Positions 16,911-23,416 of a stretch of 64,000 bases of DNA are shown here, in pieces (the stretch's first letter is position 1; the number at the start of each line of letters is the position of its first letter). The DNA is from Spirochaetales bacterium. GTDB lineage: Bacteria > Spirochaetota > Leptospiria > Leptospirales > Leptonemataceae. Under the pieces are notes generated by a model, which saw only the letters and a list, made by a program, of their open reading frames with translations, ran no database searches and had not been told where the DNA came from. Both the position numbers and the translations under genes were made by a program. Where the stretch lies: contig JABTUL010000001.1 in assembly GCA_015075425.1 (NCBI GenBank), forward strand, positions 930,001 through 994,000. Direction: 5' to 3'.

Positions 16911-17939
16911 GTGCTGCGCTATCTTTTGTTCTTTGGACTCTTATTCAGCGGAATTCTGATTTTTTATCCACCGCATGAAAGGACTTTCGCCCCGTCCTTT
17001 CATACGGTGGAAGACTGGAAAGCGGGTACATTCGGGCAGACCTCGTTCAATGGTATTTACCATGCGCCCCACAAGCAGGCGTACTTCCGGGATGGAAGCA
17101 GTCTGACCACGGAGGAAGAGCTGGCCCTTCCTCTTTTTGGCCCCGGATATTTCACGTATTCTCTTGCCGGAAGGACAGTGGCCTTTCATGCCGCGTCCGG
17201 TGAGCTCTTCTGGAAGAGGGATTTGCGCGGCTACCCGCTCCCGCACCCTTCCGGTGGCATTACCCTCTGTCTGTCCAGTGACAACAACAAAGTGCAGGTT
17301 CTGGACTCTGACGGGATGGTGCAAAAAGAAGTGCAGGGAGTCATGGTGATGGACTACGCCTTTGCAGCCCGGGTGCCCCGGGCTGCAGTGGTGTTTTCGG
17401 ACGGTCGCTTGATTCTTGCTGAAACAGCGCAGGTTCTCGAGCATACGATTTCGCGCTCAGGATTCTTTTTCGCCAAAAGTGTGGCTGTGTCGACCGATGG
17501 GCAACGCGTTGCGGTCCATGCCCTGGACACGGATCAGGACCGGATCATTTTGCTCAGGCGTACGGCAGATGGTTTGAAAGAGCAGGGCCGAATTGTACTC
17601 GATGCGGTCTACCCGCATACAATCCAGATGGCTGTTGAACAAAACGGATTACTCCTCGGGCTGCCGGATCGAACCCTGTTTTATCTGGATGGTGCGCGAA
17701 AATTCGAGCGACCCATAAGCGGTGGCCTTTACCGGGCCGTCCTTTCGACGGGCAGCCTGTTTCTTTTCGCTGAAGGTGATGCGACCTTTGTTCTGGATGC
17801 TAAAGGATCCCTGCTTCTGGTTTACAGTCGGCGGGACGGTGGACCGGTTCAATTTACAGCAGGGAAGGATCTTTTTGCGGAAGAGACCCGTGAGGGGGTC
17901 GTATTTCGCTCTTCCTCTCTTTTTGGTAGATCGAAATAG
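16911..17939 (+). CDS. Membrane-anchored beta-propeller-like protein, unknown
   Basis: A 342-aa protein starting at GTG. An N-terminal helix (LLFFGLLFSGILIFYP) anchors or exports it. The remainder shows repeating beta units with PQQ/WD-like spacing (TVAFHAASGELFWKRDL, KVQVLDSDGMV, RLILAETAQVL, GLLLGLPDRTLFYLDG). I do not recognise a specific family. It follows the sigma factor gene by 5 nt. Its last 86 nt are antisense to the end of the response-regulator gene. Confidence 0.68.
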   Translation: MLRYLLFFGLLFSGILIFYPPHERTFAPSFHTVEDWKAGTFGQTSFNGIYHAPHKQAYFRDGSSLTTEEELALPLFGPGYFTYSLAGRTVAFHAASGELFWKRDLRGYPLPHPSGGITLCLSSDNNKVQVLDSDGMVQKEVQGVMVMDYAFAARVPRAAVVFSDGRLILAETAQVLEHTISRSGFFFAKSVAVSTDGQRVAVHALDTDQDRIILLRRTADGLKEQGRIVLDAVYPHTIQMAVEQNGLLLGLPDRTLFYLDGARKFERPISGGLYRAVLSTGSLFLFAEGDATFVLDAKGSLLLVYSRRDGGPVQFTAGKDLFAEETREGVVFRSSSLFGRSK

Positions 17940-18798
17940 CCCGTGCCCGGTAGGTTGAATGAAATCCCCACATGGCAATCACTTCCGTCCGTTCACCGGG
18001 CGCTATATTGAATACCAGGTGATCCACCTGCTCGCGGCTGATGTGCAGTCCGCGCCCCCGATGGTCGAACACACCAATGGGCAGACCGGTATCGGGATCG
18101 AGTTGCACTTGCCGCTCCAGACTGTAAAGGACATCTTCGCGCCGTAAATTTCCACGGAAATCTTCCGTCACGATAAAGACCTGACCATCATCCAGAGCAA
18201 ATCGTAAAAAAAAGGGATCCTGCGCTCCCGCTGCATTGGCCGTCAATTCATCGAGAATCTGCCGGCAGGAGCGCTTGGCCCCCTGTTTGCGCAGAACATG
18301 GTCAATATGATGGCAGGCCCGATCTTTTTGCGCACTATTTTCAATGAGTTCAGAGAACAGATATCCAGGTTGAAAGTCTTCGTAAAATCCCGTGGCTTCT
18401 TTCAGACCCGGTGCGTAGAGTTTCACCCCGAAGATTTCCGGGCCCAGCAGCTTGTCCACCATGACCCGGATGTGGCTCAGATTCAGAAAGGAAGTTTTAG
18501 GGATGATATTCCAGATCTTGCGAATGCGCGCATACTGGATGTAATCATTCACATTGTAAGCTGTCATCAGGATGTAAGAACTTTCGGGATGGTGGATGCG
18601 AATCTCTTCAATGAGTTCCAGCCCCCCGAGTTCTGGCATGCGAATATCCGTCAAAACCAGATCTGCTCCCTGTTCGCCCAGAATGCGCAGGGCTTCCCGT
18701 CCGTTGCTGGCTTCCAGAATGCGATAACTGCTGGACAGATATTCTTTGATGGCTACGCGAATGGAATCGATGTCATCAACGACCAGAACGGTTTTCAT
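17854..18798 (-). CDS. Response regulator with RsbW/SpoIIAB-like ATPase output domain
   Basis: A 314-aa regulator. Residues 1-120 are a complete receiver domain with acidic D8/D9, phospho-acceptor D51 in LTDIRMP, T79 and K101. There is no DNA-binding domain. Residues about 145-290 look like a GHKL ATPase of the HATPase_c_2 (anti-sigma kinase) type: N-box LDELTANA at 183-190 and an ATP-lid loop GVFDHRGRGL at 242-251 followed by HISREQVDHLVFN. Phosphorylation may therefore gate a partner-switching kinase; this is inference. Its ATG overlaps the kinase gene stop by 4 nt. The last 28 codons are antisense to the neighbouring gene. Confidence 0.82.
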   Translation of the reverse strand: MKTVLVVDDIDSIRVAIKEYLSSSYRILEASNGREALRILGEQGADLVLTDIRMPELGGLELIEEIRIHHPESSYILMTAYNVNDYIQYARIRKIWNIIPKTSFLNLSHIRVMVDKLLGPEIFGVKLYAPGLKEATGFYEDFQPGYLFSELIENSAQKDRACHHIDHVLRKQGAKRSCRQILDELTANAAGAQDPFFLRFALDDGQVFIVTEDFRGNLRREDVLYSLERQVQLDPDTGLPIGVFDHRGRGLHISREQVDHLVFNIAPGERTEVIAMWGFHSTYRARAISIYQKERKSEIRPPHGSLPQKDPSLL

Positions 18799-19856
18799 GT
18801 TTCAAGTGGCAAAAGGATACTGAACCGTGTCTTCCCGTCGCTGGAACTGGCCCGGATTTTACCCTTATGCTCATTGATTGTATTGTAGGCAATCGACAGG
18901 CCAAGTCCCTTGCCTCCCTGTCCCCTTGTGAAGAAGGGATCAAAAATGCGCTGAATGTATTCATCGGGGATGCCCCCGGCATCGTCCTCAATAATGATCT
19001 GCGCCCAGTGCCGGGAAGTGCGCGCTTCCACGCTGATGTAACCCGGCCGGTAATCCAGAGCCTGTATGGAATTTTTGAAAATATTTATGAATAAGCGCTC
19101 AATTTTCTGAGGATTGAGAAAAAGAAAAAGGTCGGCTTGAATTTGCAGACGAAAATCAACCTGGCGGGAAAGAACGGGGTACAGACGTTTCACATTCAGG
19201 ATGGCTTTCTGAATGACCTGTCCCAGATTGGTGCGCAGGCGTTTGACTTCTCCGGTTGCGGAGAACCCCAGAATGTCAGCAACCATGAGGGAGGCGCGGC
19301 TTAAATCCTTGCGCAACATTCCCAGGCGCGCGGCAATGCTTTCCGGGGACAGAGCGGGCAGACTGGCTTCCAGGGTTTGCAGGGTCAGATTCATTCCCGT
19401 CAAAGGATTGTTGAGCTCGTGAGCAATGCCACTGATCATGGTTCCCAGTGATGCCAGGTTTTCTTTGCGCAGATTGTCCTCTTCCAGTCTTTTTTTTTCT
19501 GTGATGTCGATGATCATTTCCACCATGGCCGGATCACCACCCTGGATATTGTACATGGTCAGATGCAGAACCTTCTCTTTTCCGCGGGTGACATGGACGG
19601 TACGTTCCGCTCTGTAGGAAGCATCGGATCGCCATTCTGCAAGTACCGGACAGTACGGGCAGATACTGCTGCGGCCGTAGAGAGTTTCGTAGCACAATTT
19701 TTCCCGCTTGATACTTTCCCAGTTCCCGCTCAACTCCGGGTCGTTGCCCAGAAAGGCGGCGGCGCTCTGATTCAGACGCAGGATCTGAAAATTGCGGCCA
19801 ATGCCTACGATGGGGTAAGGCAGGGTAGTGAGAATGATGTCCGCTGAGTCCGGCAC
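18795..19856 (-). CDS. PAS-domain sensor histidine kinase with C-x10-C-x2-C motif
   Basis: A 353-aa soluble kinase. Residues about 8-118 form a PAS domain carrying C55, C66 and C69 (LCYETLYGRSSICPYCP), a cysteine pattern seen in some PAS sensors and able to bind metal or sense redox. HisKA follows with H146 in ISGIAHELNNPL, then the HATPase with INIFKNSIQAL, DDAGGIP, FDPFFT and GKGLGLSIA. No membrane helix is seen, so the signal is probably cytoplasmic. It is coupled to the receiver-ATPase regulator by an ATGA overlap. A terminator separates it from the gene upstream. Confidence 0.92.
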   Translation of the reverse strand: MPDSADIILTTLPYPIVGIGRNFQILRLNQSAAAFLGNDPELSGNWESIKREKLCYETLYGRSSICPYCPVLAEWRSDASYRAERTVHVTRGKEKVLHLTMYNIQGGDPAMVEMIIDITEKKRLEEDNLRKENLASLGTMISGIAHELNNPLTGMNLTLQTLEASLPALSPESIAARLGMLRKDLSRASLMVADILGFSATGEVKRLRTNLGQVIQKAILNVKRLYPVLSRQVDFRLQIQADLFLFLNPQKIERLFINIFKNSIQALDYRPGYISVEARTSRHWAQIIIEDDAGGIPDEYIQRIFDPFFTRGQGGKGLGLSIAYNTINEHKGKIRASSSDGKTRFSILLPLET

Positions 19857-19943: not shown

Positions 19944-20855
19944 TTAATAGGAGAGAGAGCGATCCAGCCGGTCGAGCTGCGAACGGTTCACGTCATTTCC
20001 TTCCCGGGCCGCATAGTCATTTACCATGGTCATCAGTCGGTAGAAATGGTCCAGAACCTTGAAATAGAACTTCTGTTTGAATTGTGTACGGTGTGGATCG
20101 TTGGGTGTGTTAGACATAGTGCCTACCAGTACGATATCCGTAGGTTTCTGGTTGTAACGATGAAAGACCACGATGTCATCCATGTCTTCTGTTAGTGGAC
20201 TGGGATCGACAACGACTTCCACGTCTTTTACTCCGTCGCGCAGGTGGTCATTGACGATTCGGGTTATGGCCATTTCCAGATTGAATACAGGCTCATTGTC
20301 CGGGCCCGCCCCTGCTGGCTTGAAATACAAAGTGAGGCTTTTGCGGGTCGAGCCAACAGCCCGGCGCTCAAAACCGTCGTTCTGATAGATAAAATCAAAG
20401 TGAGTGATTTCAATGCCGTCCATGGGGGCAAATTGCAGGTTCTTGACGGGGACACCGACTCCATTGGCCAGCTTGACCCTTTCATCCAGCTCCTTGAGCA
20501 GCTCCTGTTCATTTCCCAGGCCGACGAGAGAAAGTTTATCGCTGTTAGAGACAAACCGGACATAGGTATTGCGCGGTGTGAATTTCACCGACCGGAAAGT
20601 ATGGGAGAATTTATTGGGCTCCTGGGTTTCCCGAAAAGCGTTGACCCGGTCCTGGCGGGTGAGTTCCACCAGGTGGCCGAATTTCCCCAGTCTCTCCATG
20701 ACCTCTTTGACATTCAATTCCTGACGTTTTTCCGTGGCTTGCAGCTCAGGATATTTTTCAGCCTCGGTTTTGCGGTTGATCCGTTTGCTTTGAGCAAGAA
20801 TACTCCCGCTCATTAATAGGGCACAGGCTAAAGCTGCAAGTTTCATCCGTTTCAT
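19944..20855 (-). CDS. Unrecognised secreted protein
   Basis: A 303-aa protein with a good signal peptide (KRMKLAALACALLMSGSILAQ) and a mature part rich in charged residues and beta-forming segments (NTYVRFVSNSDKLSLVG, ITHFDFIYQNDGFERRA, KDVEVVVDPSPLTEDMDDIVVF). I see no catalytic motif and do not recognise the family. It is monocistronic: a strong terminator lies 23 nt downstream and a terminator-like element lies upstream. It is probably periplasmic or outer-membrane associated. Confidence 0.7.
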   Translation of the reverse strand: MKRMKLAALACALLMSGSILAQSKRINRKTEAEKYPELQATEKRQELNVKEVMERLGKFGHLVELTRQDRVNAFRETQEPNKFSHTFRSVKFTPRNTYVRFVSNSDKLSLVGLGNEQELLKELDERVKLANGVGVPVKNLQFAPMDGIEITHFDFIYQNDGFERRAVGSTRKSLTLYFKPAGAGPDNEPVFNLEMAITRIVNDHLRDGVKDVEVVVDPSPLTEDMDDIVVFHRYNQKPTDIVLVGTMSNTPNDPHRTQFKQKFYFKVLDHFYRLMTMVNDYAAREGNDVNRSQLDRLDRSLSY

Positions 20856-20923: not shown

Positions 20924-20972
20924 CAAAAAAAAAGGCTTTTTTAACCCGCCTGGCCTTAAGGGGTGGCGGGTT
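20924..20972 (-). terminator. Probable terminator of the secG operon
   Basis: Reading the minus strand, a stem AACCCGCC / GGCGGGTT (20972-20965 with 20950-20943) encloses the secG stop codon. It is followed by a short AAAAAAGCCTTTTTT element and a run of nine T. The layout fits an intrinsic terminator, although two hairpins compete. Confidence 0.6.
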
Positions 20973-21297
20973 TTGCAGGAGTCTCTGCCGGTTTGTCGGT
21001 GGCTCCGGGCAGGGGCTCTTCAAGGCCCATTTCCTCCATCTCATCGATGGGGATGCGCGGCCCAAAGTCGGCAAAAGCGATGGCTGCCAGGATGGAGAGC
21101 GCAAAGAAAAGCCCGGCTCCCCACCAAGTCGCCCGGGTGACAATGTCCATGGTAGACGCACCAAAGGCCGATCCAGAGGAGCTTCCGCCCAGTATTCCGA
21201 GGCCGCCGCCCTTGCCCGCCTGAATGAGGACCAGAAAGATGAGTACGGCGCAGCAGACAAAGAAGAGTACAAGAAGACTGACCTGCAGGATTTGCAT
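20956..21297 (-). CDS. secG: Preprotein translocase subunit SecG
   Basis: A 113-aa homologue of the small SecYEG subunit. Two membrane helices flank the conserved glycine-rich loop: LLVLFFVCCAVLIFLVLIQ, then GKGGGLGILGGSSSGSAFGAS, then GAGLFFALSILAAIAF. The tail is extended and rich in Pro, Ala and Glu (KPAETPAKPATP). It is the last gene of a minus-strand run, 39 nt after the phosphoglycerate kinase homologue. In many bacteria secG follows gap-pgk-tpiA; here gap and tpiA are absent. Confidence 0.92.
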   Translation of the reverse strand: MQILQVSLLVLFFVCCAVLIFLVLIQAGKGGGLGILGGSSSGSAFGASTMDIVTRATWWGAGLFFALSILAAIAFADFGPRIPIDEMEEMGLEEPLPGATDKPAETPAKPATP

Positions 21298-21336: not shown

Positions 21337-22506
21337 TTAAGACTCCAGCAGTGGCTGAAGGCTCTCCGGCACTTTCCCGCTGAGCAGTGCAAAGGGCAGA
21401 TCCGAATAGAAGCTTGCATGGCCCATCTGGTCAAGCATCCCTTCCTGGGCCAGGAACTGGCAGGTTTGCTCCCCGATGATGACCGTCCGTGCCTTAGTTT
21501 TTTTCAGAAATTTGCCCAGATTCCGGCTGGCTACCTGATAGGGCTCGAACTCGATCACACCGAGCGGTCCGTTCCAGTACACAGTGCTGCATTTTTTCAA
21601 AACCTTCTCGAATGCAGAGACCGTGCGATGGCCGCTATCCATGGCAAGAAAATGGTCGGGGATCCGCTCTACCGTCTTGCTTTTCCCCTGGCGCGAAAAT
21701 TGCTCCGCAACGACATGATCGAGCGGCAAAAGATAGGCCGTCTCATCCAGTTCGGCACGCTCCAGAATCTGAAATGCGGTCACCTCCTGGGTTTTATCGT
21801 AGCTGCTATTGCCAATGGGCAGGGCCCGTCCTTTCAGGAAGGTAGTCGCGATCCCACCACCGATGAGCAGATAATCCAGGGAAGGCATGATTTTACGGAG
21901 AAGCTCGATTTTGCGTGCCGGATTCTGTCCACCGAGGACCATGCCGACCGGTCGACGGGCCTGTTTAAATCCCCGCGTGTATTCATCGATTTCCTTCTGG
22001 AGTCGCAGGCCGGCCACGGCCGGTAGCAGCCCCCCCGTATGCTGGTTGCTGGCTGTACTGGCAAGGACCATCCCGGGAGCATCATGAATGAACAGATCCG
22101 CGAGACGGGCGAGCTCCCGGGCAAACTCCGCCTTACCCTTTTGCTCATCCGGAAAATGGGCAAGGTTTTCCAGAAGGAAAACCTTGCCGGGACCGGCGTT
22201 TTTGAAGCGAATCTTATTCGCGTCCGTAAAGGGGTCGAGGACTGGAATGATTTCTGAGGAAAGGTCTTTAAGAATACTGATTATTTCTGCCATCATCTCC
22301 TTTTGAGCAACTTCCTGATGGGATGGCTGAAAATGGGTACACAGCAGGACGCTGCCTCCGCGATCGAGAACCAGTTGTGCTGTGGGAATGACTCGCTTGA
22401 TTTGTTCGGGATCCAGCTTTTGTTTTTCGTGGCTCTGGCAGCTATCAAAAAGTAAGAGAGCTTTTTGACCGGATACATCAAGGCTTTCCAGCCGTTTCAA
22501 GTTCAT
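21337..22506 (-). CDS. Phosphoglycerate kinase homologue lacking catalytic residues (probable pseudoenzyme)
   Basis: A 389-aa protein colinear with PGK over its whole length. Fold landmarks remain: IPTAQLVLDRGGSVLL, FLLEN, LADLFIHDA, LPAVAGLRLQKEI, GGGIATTFLKG and VYWNGPLGVIE. The functional residues do not. RVDxNVP reads LFDSCQS (residues 19-25), SHLGRP reads THFQPS, ENVRF reads ENLAH, AHRAHAS reads LASTAS, GGAKVxDK reads GGQNPARK, and both glycine-rich nucleotide loops (GGGD, STGGGA) are gone. The 3-phosphoglycerate arginines and ATP contacts are thus missing. The frame is intact, so it is not a decayed pseudogene. The position beside secG is the classic pgk locus. Confidence 0.85.
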   Translation of the reverse strand: MNLKRLESLDVSGQKALLLFDSCQSHEKQKLDPEQIKRVIPTAQLVLDRGGSVLLCTHFQPSHQEVAQKEMMAEIISILKDLSSEIIPVLDPFTDANKIRFKNAGPGKVFLLENLAHFPDEQKGKAEFARELARLADLFIHDAPGMVLASTASNQHTGGLLPAVAGLRLQKEIDEYTRGFKQARRPVGMVLGGQNPARKIELLRKIMPSLDYLLIGGGIATTFLKGRALPIGNSSYDKTQEVTAFQILERAELDETAYLLPLDHVVAEQFSRQGKSKTVERIPDHFLAMDSGHRTVSAFEKVLKKCSTVYWNGPLGVIEFEPYQVASRNLGKFLKKTKARTVIIGEQTCQFLAQEGMLDQMGHASFYSDLPFALLSGKVPESLQPLLES

Positions 22507-22537: not shown

Positions 22538-23359
22538 TCAAGTTGAGCCAGAAAGCGCCTGCCAGTCGATCAGGTGATTGAGTGGTTTTGCGCTGCCGCC
22601 GCCAAGCCCCGGAGCCGATAGCATGGCTTTCTCCAGGTATTTACGGGCTTCCTTCACGGCTACCGGTAAAGACAGGCCATGTGCCAGGCCTGCCGTAATG
22701 GCGGCGGACAGAGTGCATCCTGTGCCGTGCGTATTCTGCCCTTTGATCCAGGGGGCCCGTATCTCTTCTTCACCGTCCTCGTGCAGGAGGATGTCCATGA
22801 CCCACTCCGGACTGATTGATTCGGGCAGATGGCCGCCTTTGATGAGAACAGCGGCTCCCGTGCTTTCCTGCAGCCTCCGGGCCGCTTCCTTCATGTCTTC
22901 CCGACTCTTTTGTGGCAGGCCGGTGAGTGCGGAAGCCTCGGGTAGATTGGGAGTGAGTAAAGAGGCCACCCGTGCCAGGTCCGCCATCGCCCGCATGGCT
23001 TCCGGTTTAAGCAGGGGCGCGCCGGTAGCGGCAACCATGACCGGATCCATGACAATCGGAATGTTCCGTGCCCGACAATCGGCAAGGAAGGGATGTATTT
23101 CGCGAATGATTTCTTCCGAAAAAAGCATGCCTGTTTTGATGGCTCGCACAGGAAAATCGGAAAGTACTGCTTCGAGTTGCGCGCGCACCATCGCCACGTC
23201 CGTTCCTGTGACCATGCTTACCGTTTGAGTATTCTGTGCCGTGAGCGCCGTGATTACGGTTGTGCCAAAGCACCCAAAAGCCCCGAAAGTTTTTAGATCC
23301 GCCTGGATGCCAGCTCCGCCGCCGCTATCCGATCCGGCAATGGTCAGGGTGACGGGCAT
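22538..23359 (-). CDS. thiD: Hydroxymethylpyrimidine/phosphomethylpyrimidine kinase
   Basis: A 273-aa ribokinase-fold enzyme phosphorylating HMP and HMP-P in thiamine synthesis. Signatures: the N-terminal [58 protein letters not shown] and the anion-hole loop [15 protein letters not shown]. The ATG at 23359 fits the family N-terminus; an in-frame GTG at 23392 would add 11 residues with no better ribosome site. It lies between the serine hydrolase and the PGK homologue with short gaps. Confidence 0.95.
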
Positions 23360-23416
23360 TTGCGGTTGCACAGCGCCAATCGGCCCGCACACCCCGGGGG
23401 GACAAACGCAAAATTT

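Follow-up and report, generated by a model that had tools for sequence, protein, structure and literature searches.

A conserved and probably non-catalytic phosphoglycerate kinase homologue at the ancestral pgk locus in a family of Leptospirales

The locus and its degenerate phosphoglycerate kinase

On the minus strand of the window (the whole stretch of 64,000 nt analysed here), between thiD and secG, lies a gene for a degenerate phosphoglycerate kinase, referred to below as the pseudo-PGK (Table 1). A preliminary description had reported an intact frame of 389 residues, colinear with PGK, and this reading is confirmed to the exact coordinates by the open reading frame and by the match to the Pfam family PF00162 (246 bits, E 8e-73, profile positions 2-367 of 379). 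Searching PDB sequences with the protein returned PGKs at every match, with E down to 7e-50. The protein consists of the PGK domain only, with neither a cyclic-nucleotide-binding nor a transmembrane fusion.

Table 1. Features of the pseudo-PGK locus, in window coordinates; residue assignments follow the mapping to B. stearothermophilus PGK (1PHP).
Feature	Position	Strand	Remarks
Histidine kinase and response regulator (clusters c3, c5)	17854..19856	minus	conserved downstream neighbours in f1 and f2
FcpB/LIC_12096-like protein (cluster c2)	19944..20855	minus	64 bits, under cut-off; conserved downstream neighbour
secG	20956..21297	minus	39 nt downstream of pseudo-PGK; Pfam SecG 58.5 bits, TIGR00810 58.6 bits
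Pseudo-PGK, 389 aa	22506->21337	minus	ATG to TAA, unbroken ORF
Former 3PG site, part one	22324..22446	minus	D21 and H58 kept; C23, Q35, P61
Former 3PG site, part two	22060..22161	minus	A116 for R118, A149 for R151
Partly kept nucleotide site	21853..21933	minus	GGQNPARK (G192, G193, K199 kept; N195 for K197) to GGG216-218
Lost phosphate loops	21400..21477	minus	IGEQT for GGGDS, SFYSD for STGGG
thiD (hydroxymethylpyrimidine kinase)	22538..23392	minus	31 nt upstream of pseudo-PGK; TIGR00097 283 bits

The upstream gene thiD probably shares one transcript with the pseudo-PGK, and its position is not conserved among relatives in the neighbourhood comparison; secG is the usual downstream neighbour there. 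The protein encoded beyond secG resembles FcpB, LIC_12096 and LenA at scores under the family cut-offs and is possibly an envelope or flagellar protein. It is conserved downstream of secG both in the window's family (f1) and in the sister family (f2), and gene order marks it as an anchor of the ancestral pgk locus.

The window genome (4.13 Mb, 96% complete) also holds the canonical pgk that the preliminary description had proposed looking for. This second gene lies on a different contig, where it adjoins gap (G000:C2:957492-958637; L053:5457-6704; 486 bits), and its key residues are all intact apart from D352E, so that the protein reads GGGES for GGGDS, a change absent from nearly all the other intact PGKs in the comparison. 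The genome's tpiA is found on the same contig as the window, about 36 kb beyond it, and gap too is away from the locus.

PGK binds 3-phosphoglycerate (3PG) through D21, N23, R36, H59, R62, R118 and R151, and the nucleotide site comprises K197, K201, N316, E323 and G350-S353 (numbering of B. stearothermophilus PGK, 1PHP, which served as reference for the residue mapping). In the window protein the 3PG residues N23, R36, R62, R118 and R151 have become C23, Q35, P61, A116 and A149, the catalytic lysine K197 has become N195, and in the phosphate loops G349, G351 and D352 have become I344, E346 and Q347, with SFYSD in place of STGGG (370-374). Retained are D21, H58, G192, G193, K199, GGG216-218, N312, P314, E319, G345 and T348. 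The 3PG site and the phosphate and catalytic loops are gone, as judged from this alignment, while the adenosine pocket survives in good part. The preliminary claim that every catalytic signature had been lost is therefore correct for the 3PG site, K197 and the GGGD and STGGG loops, but an overstatement for the largely kept adenosine pocket. Likewise, the substrate arginines are indeed replaced, R118 and R151 by alanine, but R62 aligns with proline, not with glutamine as described, and the arginine of RVDxNVP had been mistaken for a substrate ligand, the ligands there being D21/N23 and R36. The same description was right that WNGPLGV is kept, as the retained N312 attests.

Set against PGK as an enzyme class (EC 2.7.2.3), then, the window protein has the whole-domain homology, the full-length two-domain fold and the glycine motifs of the C-terminal domain, but lacks the 3PG arginines, the catalytic lysine and the phosphate loops, and has a separate intact PGK in the same genome. 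This makes it an annotation trap. Pfam places the dead PGK far over its cut-off (246 versus 27 bits), and bins or genomes in which only the pseudo-PGK is assembled would consequently be credited with PGK.

Distribution, selection and predicted fold

The search covered 30 genomes of the order and 48 of the class; f1 is represented by 22 genomes from 13 genera, Leptonema illini among them, and no recognisable Leptospira is among the sampled genomes. A scan of genome contigs with a narrower alignment matched mostly Bacillota PGKs, together with five records of the window's order, which where named by GTDB are Leptospirales, Leptospiraceae or Spirochaetia MAGs.

The degenerate PGK is present in 19 of the 22 f1 genomes, and 17 of these, including L. 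illini, also carry an intact PGK, usually adjoining gap. The two that have the degenerate gene without an intact one (G009 and G021) are bins 78-81% complete in which GAPDH is partial or absent as well; with G001 and G006 included, completeness ranges over 67-81%. I did not find the degenerate PGK in the poor assemblies G001 and G006, nor, even with a close query, in G014, which is 92% complete. One neighbouring gene is also missing from G014, so deletion and an assembly gap are both possible explanations, and the protein may be dispensable in some lineages. In most f1 members secG follows the degenerate gene within about 60 nt, and tpiA is gone from the locus. In the sister family the order is gap-pgk-tpiA-secG; where the locus is complete, the FcpB-like gene, the histidine kinase and the response regulator come next, and the PGK of this family is intact as a rule.

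Loss of the active site is common to the family, since catalytic positions are changed in all 14 f1 orthologues compared. N23, R62, R118, R151, K197 and G351 are kept in none of the 14, R36 in two and N316 in one. By contrast, G194, G195, G219, D265, D294, G296, G317 and G350 are invariant, K201, D352 and a threonine at 353 are each found in 12 and E323 in 10; the window protein, with Q347, is itself among those without D352. This pattern is compatible with retained binding of an adenine nucleotide, while the kept glycines may be structural.

The 18 full-length copies contain neither a frameshift nor an internal stop. Pairwise dN/dS was estimated by NG86 within three f1 genera, in pairs without a close relative of the window species, and the values are rough, with dS near saturation in most pairs. 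Degenerate PGKs gave 0.043-0.047 in one genus (g12), where intact PGKs gave 0.025-0.033, and 0.054 in another (g4), these degenerate pairs being at 80-92% identity; a more distant g4 pair gave 0.109. The third genus (g10) was the fastest, with 0.19 for the degenerate against 0.084 for the intact protein. At this range (0.04-0.19), and with frames intact in all 18 full-length orthologues, a pseudogene or a sequencing error is rejected. The ratios indicate that the degenerate PGK is under strong purifying selection; a decaying gene would look different. AlphaFold2 predicts a confident PGK fold both for the window protein (pLDDT 90.6, pTM 0.86) and for that of L. illini, encoded at G010:C1:737715-738767 (pLDDT 93.7, pTM 0.91), and the best Foldseek matches in the PDB are PGKs with a TM-score of about 0.9 (0.92 to 3q3v, 3uwd and 1php).

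Both marks of a pseudoenzyme, loss of the catalytic motif in an enzyme homologue and purifying selection over evolution, are seen here. The proposal in the preliminary description that this is a conserved pseudoenzyme is strengthened by the other pgk, the occurrence in 19 of 22 family genomes, the selection estimates and the predicted fold, and I consider it very probable, on these sequence and model comparisons, that the window gene and its family orthologues encode a conserved pseudoenzyme without PGK activity.

Displacement of the resident enzyme and losses in the sister family

The preliminary description had also placed the gene where gap-pgk-tpiA-secG usually sits, and this has held up: sequence and gene order make the degenerate PGK an orthologue of the intact PGK encoded in the f2 operon of that arrangement. 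The f2 resident PGKs (L073, L075-L077) share with it the locus anchors secG, FcpB-like gene, histidine kinase and response regulator, as well as R227, Q246, H264, K275 and K336 (window numbering). They differ in that all their catalytic residues are intact and in being the sole PGK found in those genomes.

In a tree of 74 proteins the degenerate PGKs adjoin the f2 residents and the class's other families, and all 17 intact f1 PGKs fall in a single clade (98/99) with Bacillus PGK next to it. A cleaner tree of 62 proteins recovers the f1 pseudo-PGKs as one clade (100), joined first by the f2 residents (SH-aLRT 99.8) and then by the class (100), with the intact f1 PGKs again a separate clade (100). 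A tree constrained to unite the pseudo and intact f1 PGKs is worse by 49 log units (AU p=0.027), which disfavours an origin of the pseudo-PGK by duplication of the intact PGK within the family, and a single clade of intact f1, f2 and pseudo-PGKs is rejected at a cost of 48 log units (AU p=0.005). A looser clade of intact f1, f2, class and pseudo-PGKs is not rejected by the AU test (p=0.39), and for this reason I claim a different lineage for the working f1 PGK, not a named donor. With the working copy thus standing phylogenetically apart from the resident one, it appears likely that a PGK of other origin has displaced the resident enzyme. In the GAPDH tree f1 gap groups with f2 gap (support 91/69), which leaves acquisition of a whole gap-pgk cassette unsupported, and gap of f1 was therefore probably inherited vertically and merely relocated.

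Loss of the active site is also seen in f2. The resident PGK of G025 (L079:5646-6824) carries H59N, R62S, R118N, R151K, N316T and G351E within an unbroken gap-pgk-tpiA-secG operon, and that genome has in addition an intact PGK of yet another lineage, which groups with the spirochaete family f19 (100/100). The resident PGK of G022 (L078:3012-4205), inside a gap-pgk-tpiA-(secG) operon, is degraded further than that of G025; no second PGK copy was seen in this genome, which is 75% complete. G029 has an intact resident together with an acquired PGK of the G025 type, to be taken with caution given 7% contamination. The gap genes of all three are ordinary f2 genes. Arranged by gene content, these genomes look like a series from resident only, through resident plus acquired, to dead resident plus acquired.

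The dead f2 pair lies inside f2 in the careful 74-protein tree and, weakly, with f1 (support 57) in a quick tree. A single loss common to f1 and the dead f2 copies is disfavoured by the gap tree, by the unbroken operon and by an acquired PGK that differs from that of f1. These features suggest a second, independent loss in G022 and G025, and since the two trees disagree, two losses are favoured, not proven.

Other divergent PGKs occur among spirochaetes. L221:5353-6516 (G056) and L222:1427-2629 (G068), from two further families, form a separate and very divergent pseudo-PGK lineage beside a membrane-protein gene, with a valS-like gene (named by eye) two genes away; in G068, 93% complete, this is the only PGK match found. 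These proteins resemble the window's in PGK length and in the absence of catalytic residues (8-10/31 key positions), but differ from it in their place two genes from valS, their very distant sequence and their separate branch. Second PGKs on a long branch in G102, G113, G108 and G083 (L223-L226), with K201 changed to alanine and STGGG altered, seemingly keep most 3PG residues and represent another kind of divergence.

Possible functions of the pseudo-PGK

What might a PGK without its active site be kept for? The explanation I favour, with moderate confidence, is that the resident pgk became a pseudoenzyme after a PGK of other origin took over, and was kept for a second function. A Leptospirales-like ancestor would have had its resident pgk in gap-pgk-tpiA-secG; an acquired PGK of another lineage would then have taken over glycolysis, and the resident protein would have lost catalysis while staying under selection for a second, non-PGK function. 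That function may be older than the catalytic loss (moonlighting) and may lie mainly in the C-terminal, nucleotide-binding domain. Five residues that mark the resident lineage and seldom occur outside it, R227, Q246, H264, K275 and K336, persist in 12-14 of the 14 degenerate orthologues, but they are a few C-domain residues picked after inspection, and the 17 columns specific to the resident lineage are as a set retained no better than other universal PGK columns (0.55 versus 0.59). Moonlighting before the loss is thus argued from those few residues, and an inherited C-domain interface is treated here as a hypothesis.

As to mechanism, the non-catalytic PGK-fold protein could bind a partner protein, with an adenine nucleotide possibly still in the partly kept C-domain pocket, setting the hinge open or closed. 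Such nucleotide-responsive partner binding is a tentative proposal, and the protein may act as a scaffold or regulator, as the preliminary description supposed.

Several other roles would also account for a conserved gene. PRPP-synthetase-associated proteins form heteromers with PRPP synthetase, and by analogy the pseudo-PGK could serve a glycolytic enzyme, be it the working PGK, GAPDH or another, as structural partner or modulator. An intact PGK accompanies 17 of the 19 degenerate copies, and the two exceptions are the incomplete bins described above, but bacterial PGKs are normally monomers, the working PGK comes from another lineage, and co-occurrence with glycolysis is trivial; I regard this reading as unlikely. 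It is somewhat less likely still that the protein remains a kinase or phosphotransferase acting on a different acceptor through the remaining C-domain nucleotide site. Between 10 and 14 of the 14 orthologues keep K201, E323, G350, D352 and the threonine at 353, and GGGDS has become G-x-D-T in most. Against this, none of the 14 has K197 or G351 and one alone has N316, the window protein has glutamine at D352, and the N-domain of the f1 orthologues offers no newly conserved group of polar residues as an acceptor site, the conserved R5, D21, E113, N114 and E121 all being common to at least some intact residents.

A partnership with protein export (SecG/SecYEG), mirrored in the pseudo-pgk-secG pair, is improbable. 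The pair has stayed close in most f1 members despite the departure of tpiA, but it is inherited from the sister family's pgk-tpiA-secG order, and since the gene survives away from secG in G002, G007 and G011-G013, the pairing is probably inherited operon order. A decaying relic of the displaced pgk, kept only by its operon position before secG (polarity), could be read from the low identity between genera (about 30-38%), the differing replacements at catalytic positions and the absence from G014; dN/dS of 0.04-0.05 (0.19 in the fastest genus), the unbroken full-length copies, the confident fold and retention away from secG have already largely refuted it, and I give it very little credence. 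A still working PGK with relocated residues is the least credible reading, for although the fold and part of the nucleotide site are kept, the positions of the 3PG arginines and of K197 are changed, as is N316 in 13 of 14, to residues that differ between genera, and such an enzyme would be redundant beside the intact PGK.

Dead PGKs as such are already known from kinetoplastids. The PGK-like proteins (PGKL) of Trypanosoma brucei and Bodo saltans, whose function is unknown, are fused to cyclic-nucleotide-binding and transmembrane parts, are poorly conserved between species and are dispensable in procyclic T. brucei (PMC4106842, PMC7729029). They too carry a PGK domain that lacks catalytic residues, in organisms that also have active PGKs; unlike them, the bacterial protein is stand-alone, PGK-length, subject to strong purifying selection and located at the ancestral pgk site. 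One of these sources, a review, notes that Ca. Kinetoplastibacterium, a bacterial endosymbiont, has a PGK predicted to be inactive. Searches of the open-access literature brought up no bacterial pseudo-PGK described as a conserved family.

Returning to displacement followed by retention for a second function, its possible generalization is that the C-domain of Leptospirales PGK has a conserved non-glycolytic function, such that on arrival of a foreign PGK the resident drops catalysis and survives for that function, as would have happened at least twice in the order (f1, and G022/G025 in f2). I hold this tentatively; if true, natural gene replacement has exposed a moonlighting job of a housekeeping enzyme. 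Moonlighting is often claimed for glycolytic enzymes, but only rarely can the second function be separated from the glycolytic one. In this family evolution appears to have split the two, with the chemistry now in another gene and the old protein kept under strong selection. Leptonema illini is cultured and carries both genes, and the second function of a PGK-fold protein is therefore open to direct attack.
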